DNA of 64,000 nt from NCBI RefSeq assembly GCF_000024605.1, contig NC_013385.1, positions 739,501-803,500 on the forward strand, read 5' to 3'. A program made the translations under genes and the position numbers. Below, one piece after another: positions 5,414 to 49,390 of this stretch. The DNA comes from Ammonifex degensii KC4 (GTDB lineage Bacteria; Bacillota; Desulfotomaculia; Desulfotomaculales; Ammonificaceae). The first letter of the stretch is position 1; each line of letters starts with the position of its first letter. The notes beneath the pieces were generated by a model that was given only the letters and a program-made list of their open reading frames with translations, ran no database searches and was not told the DNA's origin.

Positions 5414-5430
5414 AAAGGGGGGTGATCTCT

Positions 5431-7410: not shown

Positions 7411-7413
7411 GAG

Positions 7414-7440
7414 GGGGTCACGCGCGTGACCCCTCTCTTT
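7414..7440. repeat. Copy 1 of the GGTCACGCGCGTGACC palindrome
   Basis: A 20-bp perfect palindrome (arms GGGGTCACGC) lies 3 bases after the VirB6-like stop and is followed by CTCTCTTTCTT and the next ribosome binding site. It could act as a terminator or attenuator. The same core occurs in three other intergenic sites in this window. Confidence 0.75.
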
Positions 7441-7459
7441 CTTCGGGGAGGTGGCGCGG

Positions 7460-7675
7460 GTGGGGCTTTTCCTCAAGCTGGTCTTCGCCGTCAAGCTGCT
7501 GGCGGGCTTCTGCGTCCTGGCTACCGTCGCCAACTGCCTGGCTTACCTCGTCGCCCGCCACTTCTGGTTCGACGGCGGCACCCTCGAGCGGAGGCTCGAC
7601 GGTGCTACCGTGTGCTCCATCGGGGCAACCGGCCTGTTTTTCGGGCTCACGCTGCTCTTCGTGCTGTGCCGTTAA
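7460..7675 (+). CDS. Small two-TM membrane protein
   Basis: The 71-residue product has two hydrophobic segments separated by a charged loop (GGTLERRLDGAT). The GTG at 7460 is chosen because 7451 lies inside the ribosome binding site GGGGAGGTGG. No family is recognised. It lies between the VirB6-like gene and the membrane zinc peptidase, so a structural role in the same complex is plausible. Confidence 0.5.
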   Translation: MGLFLKLVFAVKLLAGFCVLATVANCLAYLVARHFWFDGGTLERRLDGATVCSIGATGLFFGLTLLFVLCR

Positions 7676-7746
7676 AAGGAATTTCTTCCCTCCTGTTGAA
7701 GGTTTTCCGGAAAGATCGCCGGGAAGCCGTTAGGAGGGAAGCGGGT

Positions 7747-8475
7747 TTGGCAGAGCCTGTACTGAAGGTGCTTGCGGGTATGGGAGCCCTGTTTCTGGCA
7801 GTGGTACTGAAAGAGGTCAGGAAAAAGCACTTAGGGGAGGCGTTTGAGGAGTTGAAGAGGGTCTGCACCCTGGAGGTTGACGGTCCGCTCGACAACTTCG
7901 GCGTGGTGGCCGAAATAGCGCCGGACGTGGAGCCGGTCTTCGCCCCGGGGTCGGGCCGGTACCTCGTGAAGGAAAAGAAGGTGCTCCTGAGCTACCCGCA
8001 GGGAAGCAGGCAGCTGCTGGCGCTGCTGGAAGCGGCCCACGAAGCGGGGCACGCCCTCCACCGGGTCCGGGCCATAGACTGGATGTACGATCCCCGGCTG
8101 AAAAACAGTGCTTACTTGCTCCTGACGCTGGCCGCCTTGGCTTTCGTCCTGCTCTGGCCGGGCAACCGCACGGCGGCCTGCGCGGCGCTGCTGAGCCCCT
8201 TACTGGTCTTATACTCTCTCTTCGTCGCCGTCCGCGCGTATGAAGAGCTGAAGGCCGTTTTCTTCTCTTTCCGCTGGCTGAGCTCTTACCTCAACGGGCT
8301 CGGACTCGACAGGAAGGAATTCAGGACGCTGGTGTGTGTCTTGAGGGCGAAAACGGCCATGGAGGCGGCGTTTGTGGTCATCAATGGGTTGGCCTGCCTG
8401 TCCTTTGCGTTGGGTCTCTACCTGCTTCTCCTTGCGGGGCTGGAGCTCGACTTGTACCTGAGAGGCGGGGTCTGA
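7747..8475 (+). CDS. Membrane zinc metallopeptidase (HEAGH; YugP/M48-like)
   Basis: The 242-residue protein has an N-terminal membrane helix, a cytoplasmic catalytic segment with AAHEAGHALH (zinc ligands in HEAGH) and two or three C-terminal helices. The order HExGH then paired helices resembles the YugP-type zinc peptidases (DUF/Zn_peptidase_2). The TTG at 7747 is preceded by TAGGAGGG at 8-base spacing, which decides the start. Such enzymes usually degrade or process membrane proteins. In this cluster it may mature channel components. Confidence 0.65.
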   Translation: MAEPVLKVLAGMGALFLAVVLKEVRKKHLGEAFEELKRVCTLEVDGPLDNFGVVAEIAPDVEPVFAPGSGRYLVKEKKVLLSYPQGSRQLLALLEAAHEAGHALHRVRAIDWMYDPRLKNSAYLLLTLAALAFVLLWPGNRTAACAALLSPLLVLYSLFVAVRAYEELKAVFFSFRWLSSYLNGLGLDRKEFRTLVCVLRAKTAMEAAFVVINGLACLSFALGLYLLLLAGLELDLYLRGGV

Positions 8476-8476
8476 C

Positions 8477-8584
8477 ATGCGCTGTAGCAGGCAGAGGGAA
8501 ATGGACTGTATGTTCGTCGAGATGGTACTGCTCACCTCGCTAGTCATGCTCTACATGCTGCTGATGGGCTTCCCGCCGTTCTAG
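8477..8584 (+). CDS. Very small hydrophobic peptide (35 aa)
   Basis: An ATG start one base after the preceding stop encodes a 35-residue peptide with one predicted membrane helix (about residues 13-31, Met/Leu rich). The ribosome binding site would be GAGGCGGGG within the end of the preceding gene. It fills the gap before a palindromic hairpin. No homologue is recognised and it may be a non-functional frame. Confidence 0.35.
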   Translation: MRCSRQREMDCMFVEMVLLTSLVMLYMLLMGFPPF

Positions 8585-8607
8585 CCCCTGCCCGGCGTCG
8601 AAAAAAA

Positions 8608-8645
8608 GGAGAGGGGTCACGCGCGTGACCCCTCTCCCCTTTCTC
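8608..8645. repeat. Copy 2 of the GGTCACGCGCGTGACC palindrome
   Basis: This is the longest copy: a 30-bp perfect palindrome (outer arms GGAGAGG / CCTCTCC) preceded by seven A and followed by CCCTTTCTC, then the ribosome binding site of the wall hydrolase. The A tract and T-rich tail would make it a bidirectional hairpin. Confidence 0.8.
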
Positions 8646-8657
8646 GGGGGTGGTCTC

Positions 8658-10400
8658 TTGAGCACGGGCAGGAGAGTCCTGAACGCGGCCTTCCGGTGGG
8701 CGGCGAGGAAGGCCCTCGCGGCGGCGCTCCCCTGGCTGGGGCCGGTCGCCGTGGTCGCCGCCGTCCTCTTTCTCTTCATCGTCCTCGTGGCGGCGGTCTA
8801 CTGCGCCATGTGCCCGGGCTCCTACACCCAGGACGTAAAGCCCTCTCCCGAGGACCAGAAGGTCGTGGCCGAGTACGAGGGGCTGGCGGGGAGGGCCAAC
8901 CGGATGGACACCTGGTGCGTCAACCCGGACAGCCCTTCCCGCCCCGGCGGGCCGAGCTACGAGTCGACGCCCGACAACCCCTACTACGAGAGCCGGGGGA
9001 AGGTGGAGTACCTGGGCGAGATGGTGGACCGCTACCGGAACGACTTTCGGCTCAGGCTCACCTGGGGGCAGATACACGGCGCCTGCGTCTACCGGAACAT
9101 AGCGTTCAACCAGCCCGAGATCACGAAGGAGCAGAGGGAGAAGACCGCGAAAGACCTGCACCCGTACTTCTACTACAAGAAGTCCGTGGTCATCGTCTCC
9201 GGCAAGGACGGGACGGAGGAGTACGAGGTCTACCTGCTGGTGGAGGCGTACACCATCCAGGGGTGGTACCAGTTCCACTACGAGTGGGTGACGGAGTGCC
9301 ACGACGGCGGCTGCGTGACCTACGAGCGGCTGAAGAGCGTCAACCTGGTGAGGCCCGACCGGTGGGAGAGGCTCGAGGACTGGATGAAGAAGGAATACAA
9401 GCTCAGGGACGACGAGAAGGAGGTCGAGACGGCGCGGGTGTGGCTGTGGGAGGCGACCAGGGGCTTCGACGCCAGGGCGGAGTGGCTGGCGTGGCTCGCG
9501 GGGCTCCCCTCGCTCGACCCGTACTTCTCCGCCGCCGCCGTGCCGCCGGAGTTCGTGCCGTTCCTGAAGAAGGCGGAGGAGGCGTTCGGCATCCCCTGGT
9601 GGTTCCTGGCGGCGCTCTTCCAGACGGAGAGCTCGTGGGACCCCTTCGCCGTCAACCCCAAGACCGGCTGCTTCGGGATCTCCCAGCAGCACCCGGAGTA
9701 CTGGAAGGCCCGCTGGGAGGAGCTGAAGAGGATGGGGCTCGTCAGCTTCAGCACCCCGGAGGAGCTGCAGTGGGACCCGCTCGCGCAGATCCTGGCGGGC
9801 GCTTTAGACCTCAGGAACAAGTTCCTCCGGGCGGGAGTCGACCCCAGGGAGGTCGACTGGAAAGGGGGCGGCTGGAAGAGCGACGAGCGGGTCTTGAAGG
9901 CCGTGGCCTGGTACAAAGGGTGGAGCGACTGGAGGGAAGGGATGGCGCAGGTAAAGCAGGTGCTGGAGCTCGCAGAGGCGGTCCTCGAGAGGCCCGCCGC
10001 CTGGCCGGTGCCCGGCTTCTACCGGGTCTCCTCGCCGTACGGCTGGCGCAAGCACCCGGTGACGGGAGAGTGGAAGTTCCACTACGGCATCGACGTCCCG
10101 CTCGAGACCGGCACCCCGGTGGTGGCGGTCTCTTCGGGCGTAGTGACCTTCGTGGGCTGGCAGGAAGGCTACGGCTACACCGTCTGCTACCGGGACGCCA
10201 ACCACCTCTACCTCTACGCCCACCTCCTGCCGGACAGCGCCGGGGTGAAGGTCGGAGACAAGGTGTCCCCGGGGCAGGTCCTGGCGAAGGGGGACAGCAC
10301 GGGAGTGTCCACCGGGCCGCACCTGCACTTCGGCGTGAAGGACCTGGCGAACGACCACTGGATCGACCCGTTGCTGGTGCTCGGCGTGAAGGTGAAGTAG
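8658..10400 (+). CDS. Bifunctional cell-wall hydrolase: SLT-type transglycosylase plus M23 endopeptidase
   Basis: The 580-residue protein has an N-terminal membrane helix, a long extracellular spacer, a lytic-transglycosylase-like domain (about residues 295-400, with FQTESSWDPFAVN and GCFGISQQHP) and a C-terminal M23/LytM domain (about 455-575). The M23 part shows SPYGWRKHPVTGEWKFHYGI, a YAHL segment and HLHFGV, which contain the metal ligands. This pairs with the T4SS as in CwlT/VirB1-type enzymes: it opens peptidoglycan for the channel. The TTG at 8658 follows GGGGGTGGT. The domain pairing SLT+M23 instead of SLT+NlpC/P60 is a variant. Confidence 0.85.
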   Translation: MSTGRRVLNAAFRWAARKALAAALPWLGPVAVVAAVLFLFIVLVAAVYCAMCPGSYTQDVKPSPEDQKVVAEYEGLAGRANRMDTWCVNPDSPSRPGGPSYESTPDNPYYESRGKVEYLGEMVDRYRNDFRLRLTWGQIHGACVYRNIAFNQPEITKEQREKTAKDLHPYFYYKKSVVIVSGKDGTEEYEVYLLVEAYTIQGWYQFHYEWVTECHDGGCVTYERLKSVNLVRPDRWERLEDWMKKEYKLRDDEKEVETARVWLWEATRGFDARAEWLAWLAGLPSLDPYFSAAAVPPEFVPFLKKAEEAFGIPWWFLAALFQTESSWDPFAVNPKTGCFGISQQHPEYWKARWEELKRMGLVSFSTPEELQWDPLAQILAGALDLRNKFLRAGVDPREVDWKGGGWKSDERVLKAVAWYKGWSDWREGMAQVKQVLELAEAVLERPAAWPVPGFYRVSSPYGWRKHPVTGEWKFHYGIDVPLETGTPVVAVSSGVVTFVGWQEGYGYTVCYRDANHLYLYAHLLPDSAGVKVGDKVSPGQVLAKGDSTGVSTGPHLHFGVKDLANDHWIDPLLVLGVKVK

Positions 10401-11104: not shown

Positions 11105-13225
11105 TTGCGCGTGCTCCTGGCCACCGGCATAGAGGAGCTGGACGAGGGCGTGGCGGCCCTGCTCGCGGGGCGCGGCGGCTTCGAGGTCGCGGGCGAGTGC
11201 TACTACCGCGAGGGACTGACCCTCCTGCTCCGGGAGAAGGGCGCCGACGCGGTGGTGCTGTCCCCCCGCCTGCCGGGCCAGGTCGGGCTCCCGGAACTGG
11301 TAAAGGAGCTCAGGATGGCCGGGGTGAGGGTGGTGCTGCTGCCGGGAAGCAGGGAGGACGGGGAGGCGGTGGAACTCGCCAGGAAGGCCGTGGCCCTGGG
11401 CGTCTACGACATAGTGTGGGACCCGGTGAAGCCCCAGAAGGTCGTCTACCGGCTGGAGAACCCGGCCGGTTTGAAGGACGCGGGCGTGGAGCCCGACTTC
11501 GGCGCGGTGGAGTACGAGCCGCCGCCCGCCCCCGTCCGGGAAGACAAAGAGGAGAAGAAGGCTTCTCTCTTGAAGAGGCTGTTCCCCTTCAGGCGCGCCC
11601 GGAAGAGTGGAGAGGAGTCCTCTCACGGGCGGGAGAAGACCAGAAGCAGGCGCGGCAAGAAGCGTGAGGCGGAAGTGTCGTCTCCCGTCCCGGTAGACGC
11701 CGGAGACGCGAGAGAAACGGTTTCCACACCGCTCCAGGAGGGTGCCAGGCCGGGCGCGGGCGGTGAAGGTGTGGCGCCACCCCGCCAGGAGGGAGAAAGA
11801 CCTGTTTCCCGGACCCGGGAGGGGGGCGGCGTCCTGGTCCTGGCGCCGCCCGAGGTGGCCGCGCGCCTCGCCCGCGCCGGCTTCCGGGTCGTCTCCGACC
11901 CCCGGGACGCGGGCGCGTGCGTCTGCGCGCCGGACAAGGTGCCCTTCGCCCCGGAGGGGGTGCCGGTGCTGGTCCTGAAGACCGGCAGGCTCTCCGACCT
12001 GCTGGCGGCCTCGCAGAAGCCCTCGGCCCGGCCGGTAGACCCCGACAGGCTGGAGGAAGAGCTCCGGGCCGCCCTGGGCGGCACTCCCTCGCCCGGGCCC
12101 GCGCCTGGAGAGGTGCCGGGAGGGGCCCGTGTCTCCCCGGACGGCGCTCCCCCGTCCGGGCCCGCGCCCGAGAGGGCCCCGGGGGTGGGGCCCGCCGGTG
12201 CCCGCGACCCCCTCACCGGGCTCCACACCCGCGACCTGCTCGCCTCCCTCGTCCCGGGTGAGGTCTGCTCCGTGGTCTTCGTCGACCTCGACGGCTTCAA
12301 GCGGGTCAACGACACCTACGGGCACGACGAGGGCGACCGGGTGCTGGCGCTCTTCGGCGAGTGCCTGCGGCGGCGCCTGCGGGAGAGAGACCTGGCGGTG
12401 AGGTGGGGCGGCGACGAGTTCGTCCTCGTCCTGCCGGACACGCACCCCGGCGCGGCGGAGAGGGTGGTCGAAGATCTGCGCCGGGAGTGGGAGCGGGTGC
12501 GCCCCTACCCCGTGGGCTTCTCCGCCGGGACGGCGGCGGTGAGAGGCAGCCTGGAGGAGGCGGTGAGGGAGGCGGACAGGAGGATGTACGCCGAGAAGGC
12601 CGCCCGGAAGGCGAGGGAGGAGGCGCTCGGGGCCGCCCGCCCGAGGCTGGCGGTCCTCCCCGGCCGGAAGGGGGAGGACGGCTTCACCCTGCCGGAGCAC
12701 GGCGTGGTCTACGTGGTGTGCCCGGGCGAGCCACCGGCCGCGGGCAGGCTGGCCGCCTCTCTAGCCGGGCAGGCGGAGGGGGCGGCCCTGGTCTGCGCCT
12801 CCCCCACCTCCACCGCCGCCCTGGCGCTGGGGATGAGGCCCGAGGACCTGGTCACCCGCGACTGGCGCGTCCCCGGCTCGGACGCCCCGGTGACCTTCGG
12901 CGGGGTGGTGGTCTGGCCGGTGGATCCGGCGAAGTTCCTGGACGTCCGCGACGCCCTGCCGAACGCCCTGGTGAGCCAGGTGAGGCACAGGTTCCGGCTC
13001 GTGGTGGTGGACTGCGGGGGCGACCTGGGCGTGGCCGCGGGCGCCCCCAGGGACGCGGTGGTGCTGGCCCTGAAGACCGGCAGGCCCGCCGCCGACTGGG
13101 CGCTCGACCAGTGGCTCAAGTCCTACGGCGCCAACGCCGTAGTCCTGACCGCGGGCCAGGCGGTGGCGCTGGAGGGGCACAGTGGAGGCTTCGTGGGGCA
13201 CGTCCAGGGAAGGCCGCACGTCTAG
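11105..13225 (+). CDS. Receiver-like / GGDEF diguanylate cyclase / CpaE-like fusion protein
   Basis: The 706-residue protein has four parts. Residues 1-130 are receiver-like, of the CpaE N-terminal type. A basic and Pro-rich linker follows, then a second degenerate receiver-like unit at about 240-310. A GGDEF domain spans about 375-520 with intact WGGDEF (434-439) and an inhibitory RxxD site at 426-429, so synthesis of c-di-GMP from two GTP with product inhibition is expected. The C-terminal 180 residues resemble a CpaE/MinD fold, but the P-loop is replaced by PGEPPAAGRL, so ATP binding is doubtful. The TTG start sits behind GGAGGTGATG. It probably couples c-di-GMP production to localisation of the pilus or T4SS. 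Confidence 0.75.
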   Translation: MRVLLATGIEELDEGVAALLAGRGGFEVAGECYYREGLTLLLREKGADAVVLSPRLPGQVGLPELVKELRMAGVRVVLLPGSREDGEAVELARKAVALGVYDIVWDPVKPQKVVYRLENPAGLKDAGVEPDFGAVEYEPPPAPVREDKEEKKASLLKRLFPFRRARKSGEESSHGREKTRSRRGKKREAEVSSPVPVDAGDARETVSTPLQEGARPGAGGEGVAPPRQEGERPVSRTREGGGVLVLAPPEVAARLARAGFRVVSDPRDAGACVCAPDKVPFAPEGVPVLVLKTGRLSDLLAASQKPSARPVDPDRLEEELRAALGGTPSPGPAPGEVPGGARVSPDGAPPSGPAPERAPGVGPAGARDPLTGLHTRDLLASLVPGEVCSVVFVDLDGFKRVNDTYGHDEGDRVLALFGECLRRRLRERDLAVRWGGDEFVLVLPDTHPGAAERVVEDLRREWERVRPYPVGFSAGTAAVRGSLEEAVREADRRMYAEKAARKAREEALGAARPRLAVLPGRKGEDGFTLPEHGVVYVVCPGEPPAAGRLAASLAGQAEGAALVCASPTSTAALALGMRPEDLVTRDWRVPGSDAPVTFGGVVVWPVDPAKFLDVRDALPNALVSQVRHRFRLVVVDCGGDLGVAAGAPRDAVVLALKTGRPAADWALDQWLKSYGANAVVLTAGQAVALEGHSGGFVGHVQGRPHV

Positions 13226-15568: not shown

Positions 15569-15599
15569 CCACCTGTTGTGATACCTTAACAACAGGTGG
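15569..15599. promoter_or_regulatory. Inverted repeat over the IS607 recombinase ribosome binding site
   Basis: A perfect 10-bp inverted repeat (CCACCTGTTG / CAACAGGTGG) with an 11-base spacer. The right arm contains the AGGTGG used as Shine-Dalgarno for the recombinase. It could be a recombinase operator at the left end or an RNA hairpin limiting translation. Confidence 0.55.
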
Positions 15600-15607
15600 T
15601 GATTACT

Positions 15608-16297
15608 GTGAAGCTCTACACGATCAGGGAAGCGGCAGAAGCGCTGGGGGTCAGCGTTTCCACCCTGCGCCTGTGGGACAAGAAGGGCATCCTCGTACCC
15701 CTGAGGACACTCACGGGCAAGCGGCGCTACACGGAAGAGATGATCCAGCGGGCGCTGGGCCTCAAGAAGCTGAGGTCTGAGCCCCGGAAGGTGGTGCTTT
15801 ACGCCCGCGTGTCCTCAAAGGCGCAGGAGCCCGACCTGGAAAACCAGGTGGCTTACCTCAAGGAGTTCGCCGCCGGGAGGGGACTTTGCGTCGACGAGAT
15901 AATCACCGACGTGGGTTCGGCCTTAAACTGGCACCGCAAGGGCCTCATGAAGCTCTGCGACCTGGTGCTCCGGGGGGAGGTCAAGACGGTCGTCGTGGCT
16001 TATAAGGACCGGTTGGCGCGCTTCGGCTTCGAGTTCCTGGAAAAGCTCTTCGCCCGCTTCGGGTGCGAGATACTGGTGGTCAACCGGGCGGAGGACGCCT
16101 CGCCCGCGCGGGAGCTGGCCGAAGACCTGGTGAGCGTCGCGCGGCACTTCGCCGCCAGGCTTTACGGCCAGCGGACGTACAGGGCCCGGAAGCTGGTAAA
16201 AAAGGTGAAGGAGGCGCTGGCGGATGCGGCGGACGGTGAGGCAGAAGAGCCTGCCGCTGAACAGCGGAAAGTGGGCCAGGCTGGTCGAGACCGCTGA
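15608..16297 (+). CDS. tnpA: IS607-type serine recombinase/transposase
   Basis: The 229-residue enzyme catalyses cut-and-join transposition by a covalent serine-DNA intermediate. The N-terminal MerR-type helix-turn-helix (KLYTIREAAEALGVSVSTLR, residues 2-21) is followed by a resolvase domain beginning VVLYARVSS, where Ser69 (or 70) is the nucleophile, and by a DRLARFGFEFLE segment typical of the family. GTG 15608 is preferred to 15596 because the latter lies in the ribosome binding site and family members begin near MKLYT. It overlaps tnpB by 74 bases. Confidence 0.9.
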   Translation: MKLYTIREAAEALGVSVSTLRLWDKKGILVPLRTLTGKRRYTEEMIQRALGLKKLRSEPRKVVLYARVSSKAQEPDLENQVAYLKEFAAGRGLCVDEIITDVGSALNWHRKGLMKLCDLVLRGEVKTVVVAYKDRLARFGFEFLEKLFARFGCEILVVNRAEDASPARELAEDLVSVARHFAARLYGQRTYRARKLVKKVKEALADAADGEAEEPAAEQRKVGQAGRDR

Positions 16298-17654
16298 GGC
16301 TTACGCCCGCCAGAAGGACGCCTTCCTGGTGGAGTACGCCCACATCAAGTACCCGCGCTACCTGGGCGACAAGCGCGCCCTGCGCGACGAGCTGGTCTCC
16401 CGGGGCTTCACCAGTCCCTTCGGGCTTAGCGCCCGCATGTGGAAGCTCTGCCTGGAAGACGCCCTCTTCACCCTGGAGAGGCAGTGGGAAGCGGCCATAG
16501 AGACCGTGAGGGGCCTGGTCGCCCGCCACGGAGGACTCACCGACGAAGAAAAGCGCTACGCTTTCTGGCTGCTGTACAAGCCGGAGAAGGGCAGCCGCCC
16601 GTGGGAACGCGTCCAGGCCATCTTCACCGGCGAAGACGTCACCGGCGGGCAGGTAAAGCTGGACGAAGCCGACAGGCTGAGGGTGAGGAACTACCTGAGG
16701 CGCGCGCTCCGCCGCGTCCTCGGCAAAAGGCCGAGAGTAAAGAAGGCCCGCAGCTTCGTGGTGGACCCACAGATGTACCGGGTGTTTTCCACGGAGAAGA
16801 GGCAGTACATAGCGGTGTCTACTCTGACTCCCGGGGAGAGGGTGGTCGTCCCCCTGGCGGGGGTGCACGCGGTGAAGGGCAACCTGCGGCTGGTGCTCCT
16901 GCCCGACGAGCGGGCGGTGGAAGTCCACATAAGCTGTGAGCCGGCAGTTTTTCCTCCCGGGGACGGAGAGGCGGGCATAGACCTTGGCGTGACGGAGGTG
17001 TTCACCGACGACACGGGCAGGAAGTACCGGCCGGAGTACGGCGAAGCCCTCAAAGAGATGTCGGACTACATCCTGGACAAGAGCAGGAAGCGCCAGAAGC
17101 TCTGGGCGCTGTACCGCGAGAACCTGGAGAAGGACCCCGCCAAAGCGCGGCGCATAAGGAAGCACAACCTGGGCGTCCTCAAGCAGCGGGAGCGGTGCCG
17201 GAGGTTCCGGCGGAGGTGCGAAAACGAAGTCAACCGCGCTTTCAACGAGTTCCTGAAGGCGCGCAGGCCCAGGGTAGTGGCCTACGAGGACCTGTCGCGT
17301 CTGCGGGGCAAGGCAAAAAGCAGAGGACTTTCCCGGAGGGTCTCCATGTGGCAGAGGAGCATCATCAGGGAGCGCATGGGGTTCAAGTGGTTTGTGTACT
17401 CGGTAGAGGACCCGGGGCCGGTGAACGCGGCCTATTCCAGCCAGACCTGCCCCGCGTGCGGGTGGCCGGACCCGCAGAACCGCAGTGGGGACACTTTCAG
17501 GTGCAGGAAGTGCGGTTTCACCGCCGACGCCGACCAGGTGGCAGCGGTGAACCTGAAGGCCAGGCTGCGCGACGAGGAGATAACGCGGTATACGCCCAGG
17601 AACAAGGTAAAGGAGATCTTGCTGCGTCGGTATTCCGGGAACGGCGCGGTTTAG
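16224..17654 (+). CDS. tnpB: TnpB RNA-guided nuclease of an IS607 element
   Basis: The 476-residue protein belongs to a family that uses a right-end-derived RNA to cleave DNA, which helps retain the element. RuvC residues are intact: Asp253 in GIDLGV, Glu355 in AYEDL and Asp437 in ADADQVAAVNL. The zinc ribbon CPACG ... CRKCG lies between the last two motifs. It is full length, translationally coupled to tnpA, and has no frameshift. It is longer than typical TnpB (about 400) because of an N-terminal extension. Confidence 0.9.
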   Translation: MRRTVRQKSLPLNSGKWARLVETAEAYARQKDAFLVEYAHIKYPRYLGDKRALRDELVSRGFTSPFGLSARMWKLCLEDALFTLERQWEAAIETVRGLVARHGGLTDEEKRYAFWLLYKPEKGSRPWERVQAIFTGEDVTGGQVKLDEADRLRVRNYLRRALRRVLGKRPRVKKARSFVVDPQMYRVFSTEKRQYIAVSTLTPGERVVVPLAGVHAVKGNLRLVLLPDERAVEVHISCEPAVFPPGDGEAGIDLGVTEVFTDDTGRKYRPEYGEALKEMSDYILDKSRKRQKLWALYRENLEKDPAKARRIRKHNLGVLKQRERCRRFRRRCENEVNRAFNEFLKARRPRVVAYEDLSRLRGKAKSRGLSRRVSMWQRSIIRERMGFKWFVYSVEDPGPVNAAYSSQTCPACGWPDPQNRSGDTFRCRKCGFTADADQVAAVNLKARLRDEEITRYTPRNKVKEILLRRYSGNGAV

Positions 17655-18199: not shown

Positions 18200-19651
18200 T
18201 TGGTCAGCGAGGTGCCGGTCAGTCTCCTCAAGCCACACCCGAAGAACGCGGAGTACTACTCTCCTCCCACTCCGGAGGAGCGGGAAGCGTTGAGGCGCAG
18301 CATCGCGGCGGAGGGCATCCGCGACCCGCTGAAGGTGACCCCCGACTACACGGTGATAGCGGGGCACGTGCGGCTGGAGATAGCGAGGGAGCTCGGCCTG
18401 GAGAGGGTGCCCGTGGTCATCGTGGACGGGCCGCCGGAGTACCTGGAGTACCTGCTGATCGCGGACAACGACGAGAGGCGCCTCTGCCGGGACCCGATCA
18501 AGAAGGCGAAACGCGCGGAGTTCTTAAAGCGGTACTGGGGAGTACGGGAAGGGAGCGCGAATCCCAAAGGCACTGTGGTCCCTCGTCAGGTGCAAAATGC
18601 ACCTCACGAAGGGAAGACCCTGGTCGATGTTGCCGAAGCTATCGGTGAAAGCGTGGATACCACGAAGCGCCTTCTTAAGCTCAACGACCTGATCCCCGAG
18701 CTCCAGCGGCTCGTCTCCCAGGGGAAGCTCTCCCAGACGGCGGCCTACTCCCTGGCCTTCCTGCCGCCAGAGGAGCAGAGACGGCTCCTCAAGGTTCTGG
18801 GAGAGACCGGCGTGAGCGACCTCTCGGTCAAGCAGGCTCAGGAACTCCGGAAGGAGCTCGAAGCCGAGCGCAGGGAGAAGGAAGCGCTCTCCCGCCGCCT
18901 GGCCGAGCTGGAGGAGGAGAAGAAGTACCTCTCCGCCGAGCTCACCAGGCTCTCCGGGGAACTCACCTTCAGGGAAGAGCAGGGACGGAAGGTAGAGGAA
19001 CTGCGCGCCCTCCTGGAGGAGAAGGAGAGGGAGTTGGCGGGGCTCAGGCGGAAGCTCAGGGAGCTCCAGGAGAGGCCCGTCGAGAGGGTCGTGGAGAAAG
19101 TGGTCTACAGGACCGACCCCGCGCTGGAGGCGGAGCTGGAGGCGGCGAGGGAGCAGGCGGCGAAGCTCCTCGAAGAGAAGGAGTTCTACGAGCAGAGGTT
19201 CAGGGATCTGGCGAGGGAGAAGGAGCGGAAGGAGGCGAAGCTCCGCTCCCTGGAGCAGGAGCTGGAGAGGCTGGAGCGGAGGTACGAGCATGTCTGCCGG
19301 GAGCTCAAGAGGGAGAAGGAGTACCCGAAGCCGCCGCAGTGGTCGAAGGAGCACGCCGAGTTCAGGCAACTCGTGGCGGACGCTTCCCAGCACGCCTGCG
19401 CCCTGGCGGAGGCGCTGGGGAACCTGCTCAAACGGCACAGGGACAGGCTCCTGGCGGCGGCCCGCGTCCGGGGCGCTCCGGGAGAAGAACTCGGGGAACT
19501 CGTGGAGGTTCTGAACGACACGATGTTCTTCGCCACCTTCAAGAGTTCCCTCAACATCGCGGCCTCCCGGATCGTCGAGGTGTGGGAGGTCCTGGAGCCG
19601 GGAAAGCCGAAGCTCCAGGTGCTGAGAGGCGGGAAGGAAAAAGAAGACTGA
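18200..19651 (+). CDS. ParB-like nuclease-domain protein with long coiled coil
   Basis: The 483-residue protein has an N-terminal ParB/Srx-type domain (about 1-95) with the box VIAGHVRLEIARELG, where the GHxR element corresponds to the CTP/phosphate-binding loop of ParB relatives. A helix-turn-helix region follows at about 140-200 (KTLVDVAEAIGESVDTTKRL), then about 200 residues of Glu/Arg/Leu-rich coiled coil and a short C-terminal domain. ParB proteins bind centromere-like sites and work with ParA-type ATPases. No adjacent ParA is present, but CpaE/MinD-like proteins are abundant in the window. TTG start behind GGGAGGTGATC. The coiled coil is unusually long. Confidence 0.75.
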   Translation: MVSEVPVSLLKPHPKNAEYYSPPTPEEREALRRSIAAEGIRDPLKVTPDYTVIAGHVRLEIARELGLERVPVVIVDGPPEYLEYLLIADNDERRLCRDPIKKAKRAEFLKRYWGVREGSANPKGTVVPRQVQNAPHEGKTLVDVAEAIGESVDTTKRLLKLNDLIPELQRLVSQGKLSQTAAYSLAFLPPEEQRRLLKVLGETGVSDLSVKQAQELRKELEAERREKEALSRRLAELEEEKKYLSAELTRLSGELTFREEQGRKVEELRALLEEKERELAGLRRKLRELQERPVERVVEKVVYRTDPALEAELEAAREQAAKLLEEKEFYEQRFRDLAREKERKEAKLRSLEQELERLERRYEHVCRELKREKEYPKPPQWSKEHAEFRQLVADASQHACALAEALGNLLKRHRDRLLAAARVRGAPGEELGELVEVLNDTMFFATFKSSLNIAASRIVEVWEVLEPGKPKLQVLRGGKEKED

Positions 19652-21683: not shown

Positions 21684-23745
21684 TTGCGCCTTTACGTCGT
21701 CTTCGGCGAATTCACGGAAAAGCTCTGCCAGCGCCTTTCTTCCAGGTACGAGATAATCGGCTCCGACCGCACCCTGGAAGCGGCGGTGGCCGCGGCGGGG
21801 GTTCTCGAAAGACACCCCGACGCCTTCCTGGTCCTGGGGGACGCGCTGGCCTCTACGCTGGTGGACGGCAAGTTCGACCGCGACGCGGCCTTAGTCAGGA
21901 ATCTAGAGGAGCTCAGGAAGACCTGCCCGACGAGCCGCGTGGTCCTGGTCCTGGGACCGAGAGCGAGCGACTCCCTGGTCCAGGAGATAGCCAAGCTGGG
22001 GATCTACGACATCCACCGCGTCGGGGAAGTCACCCCGGACACTCTCTGCGCGCTCGTAGAGACCCGCAAGACCTTCGCCGACTACGACATCGACTTAAAA
22101 GTCACCGGGAGCGCGGGGGAAACTCCCCGCGTCGCGGTCCGGGAACCAGAGGAGAAAGCCCCCAGGCCCTCCGTAAGGGACCTCGTAGCGGGCCTCGCAC
22201 GCTTGGTCCCGCGTCCCAAAACGGAGTCACAGCCGGGTGAAATTACGGACGGGAAAAAGGCAGTCGACCGGGCGCGGGCGTCTGCCTGCACGAACTCCAT
22301 TCCGCCGGGTGGGGGAGGGAAAGAGGTGGAGAAAAGGGGCGGGGGAACTCCGAAAATGCCGTTCTGGCAGAAGCTCTTCCGGCGGGCGAAGGCCGCCACG
22401 GAGGAGCAGGGAAAGCGGAACGGGGTCGGGGCACTGCCAGGACCGGCGACGGAGCATCCGGAACCGCTCCCGGCGGCGGGCGGGGTTACTGCCCCGCTTG
22501 ATCTGGAGAGGGAGCCTTTTGGGGGACCCGTACCACCCCCTGTCCGGCGCGAGGGTAGCCGCGCGGACAGCCCGGTTCCCGACACGGGGGCCCGCAGGGC
22601 CCCGGGGGAGCGGCGGAGTGTTCCCGCCGTGCTTCTCCTGGGAAACCGGTCGGAAGCGCTTGCTGCCGAGGTGGTGTCCCGGGGGTGGCGGACGGTGATC
22701 GGCAACCCTTCGGCGCCGGTGGATGCAGCGGTGGTGGACACCGAGCTTTTGCCTGCCGTGCTTGACAGGTTGCGGTGCCCGGTGGTGGCCCTCAGTTCCG
22801 GGCGGTTGAGCGACTGGCTTTCGCTAACCGACTGCGGCGTGCCGGTTGTCGTCGGCGGTGCCGCGTGCCTTGCTCTGGTGGCCGAGCACCTGGGGAGTTG
22901 TCCGGGGGTTCGGCTTCCCGTGGGGGAACGCCCCACCGCGGGGGATTCTACTTCCGCCGCGTGCGGTGGGAGCGCTTCCCGGTTTGCTCCTCCCGCGAGG
23001 AGGGGTATTGTCCTCGCCTTCTACTCCGGTGCGCAGGGGTTCCAAGGGAAGACCGCCCTGGCCGTCAATACGGCGGCCCTGCTGGCGGAGAGGGGGCTCT
23101 CGGTGTGCCTGGTGGATCTGGACACTGACAAGGCCGGGCTGACGGCGCTGTGCGGCTTCTCCGAGACGAACCCCCCGCCGGCTGACTTGGTTGCCTGCCT
23201 TGGAGAGGCACCCCCCAGTCGGGGGCCCCGCCGGGGTGAAGCTCGTTCCCGCGCCGCTCCGGTCGCCGGGCTGGTTCCCCGAGCCGCGCCAGGCTGAGGA
23301 ACTCGTGGCGAGGCTTGCTTCGGGCCACGACGCCGTCGTGCTGGACTTCGGGGCCAGACTGGCGTCCCCTGCCGTGGTGGTCTTGCTCAGGTCGTGCGAT
23401 AGGGTGTTCCTCGTCTCGACCCCGCTCCGCACAGCGCTCAGGGCGGTGTCCCGGTTCCGCGGCAGGGGGTTGGCCGAGGTGGGCGGCGAGAAAGTCGTGG
23501 CGGTGATAAACCGCGTCGGGGTGAGGGGAGGTCTCTCGCCCCGCGACGCCGCACACCTTCTGGGCTTCGGTGAATTCTTCGAGGTGCCCGAGGACCCGGC
23601 GGTGATGCAGGCTGAAAACGAGGCCCTGGAGAGAGGCGTGTATGCTCCCCCTGCCCTTAAAAAGAAGAGCCTGATCAGGTCGGCTCTCTTGGCTCTTTTG
23701 GACCGGGCGGGCGCGTGGCGGAAAAAGGAGGTTGAGTTGTGCTGA
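21684..23745 (+). pseudogene. CpaE-like protein with two receiver-like domains, +1 frameshift
   Basis: The N-terminal receiver-like domain (1-140) is followed by a Pro/charged linker, a second degenerate receiver-like unit (about 310-420) and a CpaE/MinD-like ATPase domain whose P-loop reads GAQGFQGKTA: the GKT is kept but the signature lysine of KGG is lost. Translation in the first frame ends at 23297. The family-like sequence continues in the next frame (KLVPAPLRSPGWFPEP ... VVLDFGARL) to 23745. Removing one C from the six-C run at 23211-23216 restores one continuous protein of about 686 residues. It could be an inactivated gene, a slippage-controlled gene or a sequencing error. TTG start behind GGGGGTGGT. 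Confidence 0.65.
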
Positions 23746-24434
23746 GCGGCTTCTATCTGCACTACCAGCCCATCTTCTACCTGCACGACCTCTCCCGGGT
23801 GCTGGGGTACGAGGCGTTGCCGCGCCACCCGGCTGGGTGGTCACCCCACGACCTGCTGCGGGAGGCCAGGCGTGTCGGCGCGATCCCGGTGTGGGAGCTG
23901 AGGGTGCTTGAAAGGGCGGTCGAGGAGGTGCTGCTGCGCACCTCCGAAACGCTCTTCCTCAACCTCACGCCGGAGGCGTTCACGGATACCGCTTTCGCGG
24001 TAAGGGTGAGGCGCGCGGTAGAGGGGAAAGGTGTTTCGCCGACCAGGGTGTGCGTGGAGGTCTCCGAACAGAGCCTCTACACGCCGGAGGAGTTCGGGCG
24101 CGCGCTGGAGGAGTGGGTCGGCCTGGGCTTCTACGTGGCGCTGGACGACTTCGGTACGAAGGGGTCGAACCTGGACATCGTGCTCTCCGTGAAGCTGGAC
24201 TTTGTGAAGCTGGACAGGGTGCTGGTCGGCGGGATTTCCCGCGACCGGCAAAAGCAGAGGTTGTTGACGGGGCTGGTGGAGGCGCTGTCCGGCAACGGCG
24301 TGTACCCCATCCTGGAGGGGGTCGAGGACGAGGATGACATGAAATGGCTCGCGGGGAAGGGCTGGGACGTGGGTGTGCAGGGCTTCGCCCTCGCCCGCCC
24401 GGGCTCTTTACCGTGTAGGCTCGAAAGGAGTTGA
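23739..24434 (+). CDS. Stand-alone EAL-domain c-di-GMP phosphodiesterase
   Basis: The 231-residue, single-domain protein is predicted to hydrolyse c-di-GMP to pGpG. The catalytic set looks complete: EAL at 25-27, Asn in NLTP, Glu in CVEVSE, ALDDFG, the Lys of VKLDR, EGVE and the terminal VQGFALARP. The GTG start overlaps the end of the frameshifted CpaE-like gene and uses AAAGGAGG, so it is translationally coupled to it. It is the natural counterpart of the GGDEF protein at 11105. No sensor domain is attached, so control may come from partner proteins. Confidence 0.85.
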   Translation: MLSGFYLHYQPIFYLHDLSRVLGYEALPRHPAGWSPHDLLREARRVGAIPVWELRVLERAVEEVLLRTSETLFLNLTPEAFTDTAFAVRVRRAVEGKGVSPTRVCVEVSEQSLYTPEEFGRALEEWVGLGFYVALDDFGTKGSNLDIVLSVKLDFVKLDRVLVGGISRDRQKQRLLTGLVEALSGNGVYPILEGVEDEDDMKWLAGKGWDVGVQGFALARPGSLPCRLERS

Positions 24435-24438: not shown

Positions 24439-25867
24439 GTGCAGCTGCAGCGGTTGGTGATCAACGCTGACTCGGAGATGCTCGCGCGGGTTGCCAGGAT
24501 CTCCGGGTTGGAGTGCCTCCCCCTGAACGGGAGTGCCCCGCCGCCGGGTTCCGCGGTCGTGGTTCTTCGCCCCCCGGGGGGCGGCTCCGAGGACGAGGTG
24601 CTGAACGCGGTAAGAAGTGCTGCCGCACTCGGGGTGCCGGTCGTCGTGATTGCGGGCGGCCGCGACCCGGTGGAACAGGCGCTGCTGCGAGAAGCGGCGC
24701 TCTGCGGCGTGCCGGGGGAGTGCGTGTTGCTCGTGGACGCCGGGAAGGTAGTGGACGCCACCGGGGCGGTCGTCGCGGACGCTCTGCGGGGGAAGGGTAT
24801 CGGTGTGGTGGCCGTCGTCCGGGCGGCGGAGAGGGCCCTCCGGGAGAATCTCGTGCCAGAGCCGGCCCTGTGGGAGGAGGGCGCTCCGGCCGGGGAGGAG
24901 GTCCTGTGGGAGGAAGGCGGGCGGCCAGGCGAGGTTGCTGCCGGCGTGTCCGCTCCTGAGGCACCCACGGGGCAGCCTGTTCGGACCGACGCTCCTGCCC
25001 AGCGCTCCCCCGTCGGGGCGTTTTTCGACCTGGCGGGGGCCGTGGTGGCTGTTTTCGGCGTCAAGAGCGGCGTCGGGGCCACTACGGTCGCGGCGTGCCT
25101 GACCGGGGTGCTCGCCGACCACGGCGGGTTCCACCTCGAGGTGGCGGGGCAACCCACGGGCTACGTCTACTACGGCGGCTCGCCACTGCAGGCCGCCTCG
25201 ACCGGTAGGTACGCCTGCTTTGACGGGAGCAGGCTCACCGGGGATGCCCGTAGGGTCGGCGTGCTGGTAGCCGACGTGTCCCTTACGGAGCTGGCGGACG
25301 TCGCATACGGGCGTGCGGGGTGCACGGTCTTCGTGGCGGACGGTTCGCCCGTCAGCTTCAAGAGAGTGCAGTCCCTGCTCCGAGGCGGGTGGCGGTGCGA
25401 TGTGCTCGTCGTCAACCGGGTCGTGCCCGGCGCGGGGTACCCGCCTGAGGTGTACGCCGGTGAGTTCGGCTTTTCCCGGGTCGTCGGCGTGCCGGGCGGT
25501 CTCGACGAAGAGGCAGCCGTTAACCAGGCCCAGCACGCCGGAACCCTCCCGTTGGGGCGTCCCCACGAGGGAGCTGGCGGAGAAGCTCTACGGCGACCCG
25601 GGGGAGAGGGAGAAGGTGGTGAGGCTGGCCCGCAGCCTGCGCCGCCTGGGCTTCGCCGTGTACGGCTTCGGCGGCGTGTACTACCTGGGGACGGAGGCCG
25701 TCCTGGAGATGGCGGTCTTGCGCTACGGCAAGGTGGGCTCCGGCTTCTACCTGGGTAGCCTGGGGACGCTCAGGAACCTCGCCGAGAAAGACCCCGGGCG
25801 CGCCAGGGAACTCCTGGCGGACCTCAAGAGGCAGGTTAGGGAACTCTCCCGCAAGCTGAAAGTCTAG
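24439..25867 (+). pseudogene. CpaE-like protein with C-terminal extension, +1 frameshift
   Basis: The N-terminal 150 residues form an alpha/beta domain shared with the protein at 42932. The ATPase-like domain has VKSGVGATT, lacking the P-loop lysine. Near residue 372 the frame breaks. Deleting one G from the four-G run at 25554-25557 joins GTLPLG to VPTRELAEKLYG and continues to 25867 with a helical C-terminal domain (REKVVRLARSLRRLGFAV), also found at 28517. The GTG start follows AAAGGAG, five bases after the EAL gene. It is a pseudo-ATPase even before the frameshift; its role may be regulatory. Confidence 0.6.
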
Positions 25868-26549: not shown

Positions 26550-26726
26550 CTGGCCTGCTGGAAAAATCTCCGGCCCTAGGAGGAAAGACATTACGAAGGA
26601 TCAATCAGGCTGCGAACCGGGCGATTTGTTAAGGTTGGTTCGGGAACGGCGAAAAAGTAGGAGTAAGGGCGTATGGATGCGAAAAAAAATTCTCAAGCCA
26701 GACCAGGCACCGGGGGAGGGCTAGAA

Positions 26727-28496
26727 ATGAAGAGCAAAGTTGGAATTTTCTTGGCGACTGTACTGGTGGCTATGGCCGTCTTCTTGTGTTCGCAGCCTTC
26801 TTGGGCAGCGATGCGGGTTGCGCAGTTCATCGTTGGCTATCCGGCTTATGCCGTTGAAGGCCGGGAATTTCCGATGGACGTGGCCCCGTTCATCCAAAAT
26901 GGGCGTGTCTACGTGCCAGTGCGCTACCTGGCCTATGCCCTGGGAGTTCGGGAGTCGGACGTTATGTGGTACCCCGAGACGGGGCAGGTTACGATCTGTG
27001 CCCCACCGGGTTGCAAGGCCTGCTCTTACGTTCAGTTATGGGTAGACAGTAACACCTTGCTCATCAACTATGGCTTACCCTCCAGAACAGCAAGAGTAGA
27101 CATGGACGTTACGCCTGTACTTCTAGATGGGCGCGTTATGCTGCCCGCCCGCTGGGTAGCCGAGGCCTTCGGAGCAACGGTGGTCTGGAATCCTTGGAAT
27201 CAGCAAGTAACTGTTTCGATCCCGCTGCAGGATGGTGGTACAAACCAACCGATTAGTCAAACAGGTACCGGCCAAGTAACCGAACGGCGCCAGCCAATTG
27301 CTCCGAGGTTAGAAGCTCCTGCCGAGCTACACGTGGCAAACATCGTGCCAGTAACAGGTTACCCTGGTGCCTACCACGTGACTTTGTCCTGGAGCCCGGT
27401 AAACGGCGCTAGTGGCTACAAGGTTTATACGAAGGCTCTCTGGCCTCCCGGAGCCGGTTACGTCGCCACCGAAACCCAGACCAATTCTTATACCACCATT
27501 TTCGGCGTAGCCCATCCGGAGGGCCATGCTAGCTGGGAGATCTACGTAACCGCCGTGAATGCGGCCGGAGAGAGTCCGCCCAGCAACGTCATAACCGTTG
27601 ACCTTCCTCCTGCAGCACCGACGCAGCAGGAAATTGAAAGTATTATGGCCAGAACAGTGGAACAAGACGATTGCAGGTTTCACTTCGTGCCTGAAGGAGA
27701 TCCGCTAACAGTGCCTGATGGCCAAGGAGGAACTTTGACTGCAGTTATAGGACAGCGGTACCCGACGGCTGACGGATATGGCGAACTTGTGTTCTTCTGG
27801 CATAACAAGGATTTCCTCGGCTGGGACTGTGATCACGAACACAACGACATAATAGACGTTTCTTCCCCAGGACCGGGGCGCATAACGGTTACTTATGCGC
27901 ACTATGCCGAAAACGACCCCCTGTGTGCTCCATCTCTCCCTCCGGTGAAGGTAACCTTCGCCTGGATTCCCAGTAGGCCAGATATACCGGATGATCCCCG
28001 GCTGGTCATGCTCGACAATATGCCTCCGGAGGATCCTGGGATAAAGGTTAAAGTTAAACTACTCCCAACGGCCAACACTCAGCCTAAGGTTGTAGGAAGC
28101 CAGCATTACCGGGAGGTGATACAAGGGGCTTTGGACCTGCTGGCCCGCTACGATCCGGAGGACTACCACCTTGTCGGGGAACACCTTACCGAGATAAAGG
28201 AAAGTGACAGGTCCGGTGTTAACATCTACACGGGCGTGTTCGAAAACAAGCTCGATAGTGGTAGCGGAAAAGAGTTGATGATGAAAGAGGCGGGGGAGAT
28301 AGTGCATGATGCTACCCATGTGTGGCTCTACAAAAACGGCTATCAATGGTGGGGTGAGGAGGCCGAGAGGTACTGCTGTGAAGCACAAAAGCGGGCACTT
28401 AGGAGGATAGGTGCACCACAGTGGATGATCGATGGCATAGACGCCGCGTTCCAGACCCGGTATTGGGAGATCCCTTATGAGCAGAGGTACTGGTAG
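26727..28496 (+). CDS. Secreted protein: copper-amine-oxidase-N-like domain, FN3 domain, possible metallopeptidase
   Basis: The 589-residue protein has a signal peptide (cleavage near WAAM), a 'copper amine oxidase N-terminal' type stalk domain (about 30-165, with VPVRYLAYALGV and LPARWVAEAFGA; it binds no copper and is not an oxidase), a fibronectin type III domain (about 200-290) and an uncharacterised C-terminal domain. The latter has EIVHDATHVW at about 525-534 and GEEAERYC about 15 residues later, the spacing of an HxxxH...E zinc site, with Asp in place of the usual Glu. ATG start with GGGGAGGG. The gene is clearly lower in GC than its surroundings, a sign of transfer. Confidence 0.65.
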   Translation: MKSKVGIFLATVLVAMAVFLCSQPSWAAMRVAQFIVGYPAYAVEGREFPMDVAPFIQNGRVYVPVRYLAYALGVRESDVMWYPETGQVTICAPPGCKACSYVQLWVDSNTLLINYGLPSRTARVDMDVTPVLLDGRVMLPARWVAEAFGATVVWNPWNQQVTVSIPLQDGGTNQPISQTGTGQVTERRQPIAPRLEAPAELHVANIVPVTGYPGAYHVTLSWSPVNGASGYKVYTKALWPPGAGYVATETQTNSYTTIFGVAHPEGHASWEIYVTAVNAAGESPPSNVITVDLPPAAPTQQEIESIMARTVEQDDCRFHFVPEGDPLTVPDGQGGTLTAVIGQRYPTADGYGELVFFWHNKDFLGWDCDHEHNDIIDVSSPGPGRITVTYAHYAENDPLCAPSLPPVKVTFAWIPSRPDIPDDPRLVMLDNMPPEDPGIKVKVKLLPTANTQPKVVGSQHYREVIQGALDLLARYDPEDYHLVGEHLTEIKESDRSGVNIYTGVFENKLDSGSGKELMMKEAGEIVHDATHVWLYKNGYQWWGEEAERYCCEAQKRALRRIGAPQWMIDGIDAAFQTRYWEIPYEQRYW

Positions 28497-28516
28497 CTTC
28501 AGGCCTGCTGTCAGAT

Positions 28517-28780
28517 TTGAGGGGTGGCGCAAAAAAGGTCTACCGGCTGGCCCGCGGCCTGAGGCAGATGGGCTTCGCCCTGTGCGAGAGGCAGCCCAGG
28601 AAGCTCAAGCTGGTGGTAGAGCGCTCCGTGGAAGTGGCCGCCGGCACCTTCCGCTCGCTTCCCAGAGTGGTCGCGGCCGTGGAAGAGGCGGGCGAAGGAG
28701 CCCTGGCCCGGGAACTGAGGCGGACGATAAGAGAGGCCCTCGGCCAGCTGGCCCGGGAGTTCGGAGTCGAGGAGACTTGA
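28517..28780 (+). pseudogene. Fragment homologous to the C-terminal domain of the 24439 protein
   Basis: KKVYRLARGLRQMGFAL parallels EKVVRLARSLRRLGFAV in the other gene, and both end in a helical segment (REALGQLAREF). No ribosome binding site precedes it and composition changes sharply just upstream. It looks like the tail of a second CpaE-like gene whose body was replaced when the low-GC gene arrived. Confidence 0.5.
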
Positions 28781-28782
28781 CC

Positions 28783-28817
28783 GGCCCGGCTTTCCGTGCC
28801 GGGCCTTTTCTTTTTTT
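28783..28817 (+). terminator. Intrinsic terminator
   Basis: An 8-bp stem (GGCCCGGC / GCCGGGCC) with a 7-base loop, then TTTTCTTTTTTT. Confidence 0.8.
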
Positions 28818-28838
28818 GGGTCTGGTCCCGGCCTGGCT

Positions 28839-29096
28839 CTAGCGCCTGAGGACCCACTCCAGGACGACGACGCCCAGGGTGAAGACCGCCGTGATGGCCG
28901 CCACGGCACCCCAGAAGTGGCCCTTCAGGCTCGCCACTTCCTGTCTGATTTCCTGCCTGACCGCCGATATTTCCGCGGAGAGCTTTTCGTCAAGCCTGTC
29001 TATGCGCTGGAGCAGGAAGAAGAACTCCGGCGACGCCACCCGGTACGGGAACTCTTCCGCCCTCGGTTCTCTCTTAGCTTCTTCCACAGGCGCCAC
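28839..29096 (-). CDS. XhlA-like coiled-coil tail-anchored protein
   Basis: The 85-residue minus-strand protein has a central amphipathic helix (RIDRLDEKLSAEISAVRQEI) and one C-terminal membrane helix ending LEWVLRR. This layout is typical of XhlA/BhlA-like phage-associated proteins and similar small membrane coiled coils. GTG start behind GGGAGAAAGG on that strand. It could be a holin-associated protein or a simple membrane scaffold. No other phage genes are present. Confidence 0.55.
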   Translation of the reverse strand: MAPVEEAKREPRAEEFPYRVASPEFFFLLQRIDRLDEKLSAEISAVRQEIRQEVASLKGHFWGAVAAITAVFTLGVVVLEWVLRR

Positions 29097-29138
29097 TACC
29101 TTTCTCCCGTGCTTCCCGCCTCCATTTTAACAGAAAGG

Positions 29139-29170
29139 GCCCGGCTTTCCCACCGGGCTTTCTCTTTTTT
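29139..29170 (+). terminator. Intrinsic terminator
   Basis: Stem GCCCGG / CCGGGC with an 8-base loop, followed by CTTTCTCTTTTTT, then a ribosome binding site after two bases. Confidence 0.7.
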
Positions 29171-29269
29171 AAGGGGAGGTGGTGGCGGAAAGGCAAAAGA
29201 CCTGTAGCCTCTGTACCGAAAACTCTGGTAGAATCTCGCCGAGGAAAAATTTTCCCGGAGGTGGTGAGC

Positions 29270-30301
29270 TTGAAGAAGTTCAAGGTTCTCAGCTTAGCGG
29301 TGCTTGTTGTGTTCCTCTTGGCGGGAAGCGTCTTCGGTGCGGTCAAGTGCCTGGCCCAGGAGGAGAAGGTAGTCACGGACCAGGGGTGGGTCGTGTTCAG
29401 GCTGGGCGACCCCAGGGTGTTCGTGAAGGGGCCGAACGCGGACAAGTTCGCCCCGGAGGTGCCGCGCCGTCCCGCCGACGGGGCGCCCGATGTCACCGTG
29501 CTGAAGATCGACGTGGCGCCCTACACCAACAAGGACGGGCGGACGATGGTGCCGTTCCGCTTCCTGGCCAACGCGCTCGGCGTCGACAACCGCTGCATCC
29601 ACTGGGACGGCGCCCTCCGGCAGGTGACCCTCGACGACCCGGCGTTCCCGACGGTGCAGATGATCGTCGGCGAGAGGGTCATAGCCACGGGCGGGCGCGA
29701 GATCCCCATCGACACGGCGCCCGAGCTCGTGTCGCCGCCCGGCCGCACGACGCTTCCGGCCAGGTTCGTGGCGCAGGCCCTGGGCTACAATGTCGAGTGG
29801 GACGAGAAGACCAACACCGTCTACTGCTGGAAGGGCCAGAGGCCAAAGGAACAGGTGAGGGACGAGATCTTAAAGCTACTGGGTGGGGAACTCGCCTGGA
29901 GGTCCATAGGCGTTTCCACCGCCAACAAGGTGCTCGCGCCCCCGGGCGGCCACATCGTGCCGGGCAACGGGGCCTACAGTGTGAACGGGGTGATGGTCAT
30001 TGACGAGAGTGATGGCGTCGTGTGCATCCTCACCACCGTCGGCATCCAGCCCAAGGCCACGCTGCCGGACGGCACCACCTGGGAGCAACAGATGGCTACC
30101 CTGCGGCAGGTGCTGGAGAGGAACTTCGGCCCCGGAGAGTTCACCGAGAAGCTGATGTACATGGCCGAGCAGAAGGACAGCCAGTACAAGAACTACCCGC
30201 CGCTCCAGGTCCTGACCGCTCCCGACGGCCGCCAGGTGATGGTGGATGACGACGGCGGCGGCATCTTCATCGCGGTCAAGCCGCCGGGGGTGGGCTTCTG
30301 A
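29270..30301 (+). CDS. Secreted stalk-domain protein (copper amine oxidase N-like)
   Basis: The 343-residue protein has a signal peptide, then a two-lobed 'copper amine oxidase N-terminal' domain (VPFRFLANALGV ... WDGALRQVTL; LPARFVAQALGY ... VEWDEKTNTV), a common extracellular module in Firmicutes. The C-terminal 140 residues are unassigned. The TTG at 29270 is chosen over GTG 29261 because the latter sits inside GGAGGTGGTG. It overlaps the next start by one base. It is probably part of the surface structure built by the adjacent genes. Confidence 0.7.
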   Translation: MKKFKVLSLAVLVVFLLAGSVFGAVKCLAQEEKVVTDQGWVVFRLGDPRVFVKGPNADKFAPEVPRRPADGAPDVTVLKIDVAPYTNKDGRTMVPFRFLANALGVDNRCIHWDGALRQVTLDDPAFPTVQMIVGERVIATGGREIPIDTAPELVSPPGRTTLPARFVAQALGYNVEWDEKTNTVYCWKGQRPKEQVRDEILKLLGGELAWRSIGVSTANKVLAPPGGHIVPGNGAYSVNGVMVIDESDGVVCILTTVGIQPKATLPDGTTWEQQMATLRQVLERNFGPGEFTEKLMYMAEQKDSQYKNYPPLQVLTAPDGRQVMVDDDGGGIFIAVKPPGVGF

Positions 30302-40247: not shown

Positions 40248-40335
40248 GATCTGCGCCGCCCGCGCGGTCCGGCTCACATACCGGTCCGGCGGGCGCCGAC
40301 GGTGCTCGACGGCAGCTTAGAGGGAGGTGGTCTCG

Positions 40336-41738: not shown

Positions 41739-41739
41739 C

Positions 41740-43933: not shown

Positions 43934-43937
43934 GGCG

Positions 43938-45035: not shown

Positions 45036-45041
45036 TCACCG

Positions 45042-46100: not shown

Positions 46101-46119
46101 CCGTGAGGGGGTAGTGAGA

Positions 46120-46764: not shown

Positions 46765-46782
46765 CGGAAAGGGGTGGTGTCG

Positions 46783-49389: not shown

Positions 49390-49390
49390 G

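Follow-up and report, generated by a model that had tools for sequence, protein, structure and literature searches.

The window, a stretch of 64,000 nucleotides of the Ammonifex degensii KC4 genome (NC_013385.1, positions 739,501 to 803,500), carries on its forward strand a gene for a stand-alone EAL domain protein at 23739-24434. The 231-residue product, which starts at a GTG, consists in Pfam of an EAL domain without other domains, and the match is full-length (E = 9.1e-36 over residues 4-221; 123.8 bits; profile positions 12-236 of 236). The genome (2.16 Mb) has four matches to EAL; the three besides this one are parts of longer open frames. As an earlier note on this DNA had proposed, the gene sits between two CpaE-like genes, CpaE1 upstream and CpaE2 downstream, although the upstream gene is present as two frames and the downstream gene is truncated. 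From its GTG onward, the EAL gene shares 7 bases with the end of the upstream open frame (stop at 23743-23745), and a GGAGG precedes the start; this bears out the note's view that the EAL gene is translationally coupled to a CpaE-like gene. The second CpaE-like gene follows as closely as had been said, but its GTG (24439) is separated from the EAL stop by 4 bases rather than 5.

CpaE1, which is a single frame in its relatives, is read in the window as two overlapping frames on the plus strand. The 5' part (21684-23297) encodes a receiver-like N-terminus, a linker and the P-loop of a MinD/ParA-type domain, after which the frame is lost; its Pfam CbiA match (3.8e-5) falls below the curated cut-off, and CbiA is also found in CpaE1 of the relatives. 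The 3' part (23191-23745) lies in the other frame, shows homology from about 23215 and ends in the stop that overlaps the EAL start; it has no Pfam match of its own in the window. The relatives include a 610-aa protein of Desulfofundulus thermosubterraneus (locus L084) and a 578-aa protein of the window's own genus (L046). By tblastn, 22299-23228 is 45% identical to the L084 CpaE1 and 23215-23742 is 80% (80-81%) identical to its positions 436-610, in a different frame from the 5' match. The break falls near a C run at 23211. Because CpaE1 is conserved on both sides of this point, with dN 0.126 and dS 0.72 for the 3' part, the break is either recent or a sequencing error.

Weak Response_reg matches (0.00017-0.0094), all below the Pfam cut-off, were obtained for four of ten CpaE-type proteins scanned. 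CpaE1 of L084 and L047 scored 32.8 and 40.6 bits, respectively, against NCBIfam TIGR03815 and so did not reach its cut-off of 154.45; this model describes the actinobacterial homologue and thus does not define the whole TadZ/CpaE family. The gene immediately before the EAL gene in genome G208 (L178 10389-12782) encodes a CpaE-like protein of 797 aa that consists of two fused ParA/MinD-like units.

The homologous part of CpaE2 runs on the plus strand from 24439 to 25569. Up to that point it shares 67% identity with the gene of L084; there the match to relatives stops, the C-terminal tail is missing, and the open frame continues to 25758. The CpaE2 end is joined to a 5'-truncated gene on the same strand but in a different frame (25562-25867; 33% identical to L178 17509-17219), leaving a junction scar, and the intact relative of this fragment is a 142-aa protein that adjoins ParB in L178. 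The P-loop of CpaE2 is degenerate (GVGATT, with the Walker-A lysine replaced). CpaE2 has no Pfam match in the window or in L046, and that of L047 gives CbiA at 6.2e-6. A profile of seven CpaE2 relatives matches PDB 3fkq, which we take to be TadZ of E. rectale (E 0.0017), and the CpaE structure 4n0p (E 0.094); the AlphaFold model, which is modest (pLDDT 67.6, pTM 0.43), matches MinD/ParA folds, including 3fkq at E 1.1e-3. There are also weak BcsQ profile matches to CpaE2 and to CpaE3, the third CpaE-like protein of the relatives. The assignment of the CpaE1 3' part and of CpaE2 is drawn from relatives, weak profile matches and predicted fold, and we label CpaE1 and CpaE2 CpaE-like rather than CpaE. 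A mobile or viral origin of the module was considered and dropped: CpaE2 of L084 had no match among 72,556 plasmid records, and no relative of the EAL gene was found in viral contigs.

The window protein has all 11 metal- and substrate-binding positions of EAL domains, a set that we take from work on RocR (E25, N75, E107, E110, D136, D137, K157, D159, E193, E196 and Q214); in an alignment of seven members of its clade they are invariant. In a profile comparison with the phosphodiesterase MorA, the columns align one to one, and the AlphaFold model (mean pLDDT 89.9) matches the folds of MorA, BifA, MucR and RocR, as well as that of FimX. The loop after DDFG reads KGSNL instead of the usual GYSSL and varies within the clade. 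Since the predicted active site is complete and the fold resembles active phosphodiesterases, the window EAL protein is likely to hydrolyze c-di-GMP. Against D. thermosubterraneus, the gene has dN 0.115 and dS 0.91 over 185 codons, values which indicate that it is under purifying selection. Its product is 80% identical to the EAL protein of another family and 61% identical to that of its own genus, and these identities suggest transfer between families.

The conservation of this arrangement was investigated in 113 genomes of the class, 398 genomes sampled from the phylum and 22 genomes of one further class. Within the class and the phylum sample, a sharp gap sets 10 loci in 9 genomes (E < 1e-77) apart from the next matches (9e-46 or weaker), and in a tree of EAL domains these 10 loci form one clade with a support of 0.999. 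The locus at E 9e-46 (L180, genome G412) lies beside an ABC transporter and was not counted as a member. The order CpaE1-EAL-CpaE2 occurs in 7 of the 10 loci, drawn from three families (f1, f9 and f31): the window, L046 (G001), L047 (G007), L048 (G002), L084 (D. thermosubterraneus, G079), L164 (G081) and L178 (G208). In all seven, the CpaE1-EAL and EAL-CpaE2 junctions are overlapping or closely spaced, and position and coupling are kept even where the EAL proteins are only 36-41% identical. Thus, the adjacency for which the earlier note had sought a check in related genomes is conserved. Tad or CpaE-like genes were found near none of 78 EAL loci outside the clade (80 loci minus the clade members L084 and L085), as judged by tblastn searches (1e-5) that used the Tad proteins of this group as queries against flanks of up to 10 kb, shorter for some loci. 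On this difference, 7/10 versus 0/78, we reject a chance neighborhood.

The remaining three clade loci are arranged differently. In L166 and L167, the EAL gene lies downstream of a prepilin peptidase gene (called by Pfam in L166 and by sequence likeness in L167) and a P-loop gene recognized by its motif alone, without a Pfam match; L179 (G281) has no CpaE, Tad or prepilin peptidase neighbor. CpaE1, EAL and CpaE2 are open frames in the G081, G208, G001, G002 and G007 copies, with the G081 CpaE1 beginning near the contig start. In L084 of D. thermosubterraneus, a one-base break interrupts the EAL gene (7994-8698) beyond the EAL motif; translation from a start in the other frame would yield a product lacking that motif. 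Proteins with copper-amine-oxidase-N domains in Pfam are encoded at 26673-30301, near the EAL module of the window, and in L167 and L179 sequences that by reading resemble such domains, together with a transglutaminase-like part, lie 3' of the EAL gene.

Two things escaped the earlier note: a Tad pilus operon is the context that is conserved, and the copy in the window is damaged. CpaB, CpaE3, CpaF, TadB and TadC follow the module in five of the seven loci (L047, L048, L084, L164 and L178), and in L046 the contig stops just after the CpaB start. In these relatives the EAL gene is a regular member of a Tad (Flp) pilus operon. In the window, a ParB-like protein typical of the locus type is encoded upstream on the plus strand (18200-19651; Pfam HTH_ParB 3.4e-6; 47-65% identical to ParB of L178, L047 and L048), and the cognate CpaB, CpaE3, CpaF, TadB and TadC are absent directly downstream of the module. 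The window copy is a truncated, frameshifted remnant of the operon, with the frame breaks judged from one assembly of the organism. Two further Tad clusters, neither with an EAL gene, lie on the plus strand 14-27 kb downstream of the module: cluster A (38869-42597), with CpaB-like, CpaE-like, CpaF (in two frames) and TadB genes, and cluster B (42932-51160), with two CpaE2-like genes, one CpaE1-like gene, CpaB, a CpaE3-like gene, CpaF, TadB and TadC. In the cluster A CpaF (40327-41738), the frame break coincides with a G run immediately ahead of the Walker A motif. With the cognate type, the CpaF proteins encoded elsewhere in the genome share only about 34-37% identity. The window EAL protein may act alone, may act with Tad clusters A and B, or may be heading for loss.

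The GGDEF-CpaE fusion that had been noted elsewhere in the window is indeed present, at 11105-13225 on the plus strand. It comprises a receiver-like N-terminus, a CpaE1-type middle, an inserted GGDEF domain and a degenerate C-terminal domain; the Pfam GGDEF match (3.3e-27, profile positions 30-159 of 161) is one of 11 in the genome and the only one inside the window. The GGDEF motif lies at residue 435 and RERD, of the RxxD type, at residue 426. The N-terminus is 60% identical to the L084 CpaE1, and the G081 relative of the fusion is 62% identical. Relatives of the fusion make up 11 rows in 10 genomes, and four of the 11 have the GGDEF domain (the window, L187 of G081, L191 of G080 and L190 of G029). 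In the G029 protein (L190 4812-6191), the receiver-like N-terminus and GGDEF domain are followed by a probable membrane helix that replaces the P-loop ATPase domain.

Both the EAL gene and the fusion keep their catalytic motifs, in keeping with the proposal that the window contains a complete circuit for making and breaking c-di-GMP tied to CpaE-family proteins. As a complete circuit, however, the proposal is not supported: the module and the fusion lie about 10.5 kb apart, both CpaE partners of the EAL protein are damaged here, and module and fusion were found together in only two genomes, that of the window (G000) and G081, each also being found without the other. An IS607-like pair, a MerR-resolvase and a protein with a TnpB/Cas12f-like C-terminal domain, is encoded between them (15596-17654). 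The block immediately preceding the fusion gene (2118-10400) comprises genes for a VirB4/TraC-like ATPase, a large membrane protein and an M23/SLT enzyme of the cell wall. CpaE-like genes in L189-L195 come after a block of identical order and often have Tad genes next; because this order is conserved in several relatives, we conclude that loci of this type combine type IV secretion-like and Tad genes.

With respect to possible outputs, Rfam gave no family in the window. c-di-GMP-I riboswitches occur in four of seven genomes, not including G000, and by the listed coordinates none is at the EAL locus; on the contig of G079 that holds this locus (C69), the only one lies about 33 kb away. PilZ has one match in each of the seven genomes, and in G000 it is far from the EAL locus. 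As neither a riboswitch nor PilZ is linked to the EAL gene, no output protein was found besides CpaE1 and CpaE2.

On balance, and with confidence only a little better than even, we favor a reading in which the EAL protein serves one Tad (Flp) operon subtype as its dedicated c-di-GMP phosphodiesterase, acting via TadZ/CpaE-like scaffolds. This reading is based on sequence family, active-site residues, conserved gene order and gene overlap, and on the Tad setting of the relatives. In an intact operon, the EAL protein would be made together with two TadZ/CpaE-like scaffold proteins by coupled translation and would probably be held by these scaffolds, CpaE1 and CpaE2. It would then clear c-di-GMP from the surroundings of the pilus base, and this removal would set the timing of pilus building or withdrawal; in some carriers, it would be opposed by a predicted diguanylate cyclase that forms one chain with a CpaE-like protein from the same kind of locus. 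Counting against a phosphodiesterase of this kind are the damage in the window, the frameshift in the L084 EAL gene, the G281 locus without CpaE or Tad genes, the altered loop, and the lack of an EAL gene in clusters A and B.

Several of these points would suit other explanations. The altered loop in the clade, the FimX-type structures among the fold matches and the two CpaE-like neighbors as an obvious output are what one might expect of a c-di-GMP receptor, not an enzyme, that signals in a FimX-like manner to pilus ATPases through CpaE1 and CpaE2; according to PMC6581867, FimX works with the pilus ATPase PilB. We nevertheless consider a receptor unlikely, given that all 11 catalytic positions are kept and are invariant among the seven aligned members. 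FimX-type receptors have lost some catalytic positions. Less probable still is an ordinary global phosphodiesterase, carried by chance on a T4SS/Tad locus and unrelated to CpaE function. It would account for the G281 clade member and for a locus type that also holds ParB, M23 and VirB4-like genes, and the identity to another family (80% versus 61% to its own genus) fits transfer; however, position and coupling are maintained in seven loci of three families down to 36-41% EAL identity, and such linkage is seen in none of the 78 controls.

A further explanation concerns the window itself, where the module may be a dying remnant, with CpaE1 broken, CpaE2 truncated, the pilus genes lost and the EAL gene not yet degraded. 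The CpaE1 frame break, the CpaE2 junction scar, the missing cognate motor genes, for which the other CpaF proteins at about 34-37% identity are distant counterparts, and the cluster A CpaF, likewise in two frames, all point this way. Yet the EAL gene has kept an intact, strongly conserved frame, CpaE1 beyond its break is still 80-81% identical, with the dN and dS given above, and the breaks in CpaE1 and in the cluster A CpaF both coincide with C or G runs, a frequent source of error in older sequencing; we regard decay of the whole module as possible but rather doubtful. Returning to the scaffold-bound phosphodiesterase, a broader version can be put forward, tentatively and at well under even confidence: TadZ/CpaE-like proteins would be general docking platforms for c-di-GMP enzymes in this branch of the Bacillota, with a cyclase in the same chain or a phosphodiesterase coupled to them, maintaining a private c-di-GMP pool at the base of the Tad (perhaps linked type IV secretion) machine that would be read out by degenerate P-loop proteins. 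The operons of G081 and G208 are intact and suited to biochemistry.

No account of an EAL gene within a Tad operon or of a GGDEF-CpaE fusion was found among the titles and abstract openings of a literature library with few subscription papers. The FimX-PilZ-PilB system of type IVa pili likewise ties an EAL-domain protein to a pilus motor and the cell pole. FimX is a multidomain, catalytically degenerate receptor, whereas here a stand-alone EAL protein with a complete active site is encoded inside a Tad operon, beside CpaE-like proteins rather than PilZ. In Caulobacter crescentus, enzymes acting on c-di-GMP are encoded away from the Tad genes; in contrast, here a predicted phosphodiesterase lies inside the Tad operon and a predicted cyclase is fused to a CpaE-like protein. 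Tad pili of C. crescentus respond to c-di-GMP by a mechanism still to be shown, according to PMC6581867. With a predicted phosphodiesterase encoded between two CpaE-like proteins, the TadZ/CpaE step becomes a candidate for where c-di-GMP enters Tad control. BcsQ, a MinD-like protein beside c-di-GMP-controlled cellulose synthesis, offers a similar pairing of a MinD-like protein with c-di-GMP signaling, and its profile weakly matches CpaE2 and CpaE3, but the machine here is a different one and we know of no EAL gene coupled to BcsQ. The remaining likeness is to the polar positioning ATPase TadZ/CpaE, since both the CpaE2 profile and the predicted model match 3fkq; unlike that protein, CpaE1 and CpaE2 are without parts of the P-loop signature, have several paralogues in each operon and stand on either side of an EAL gene.
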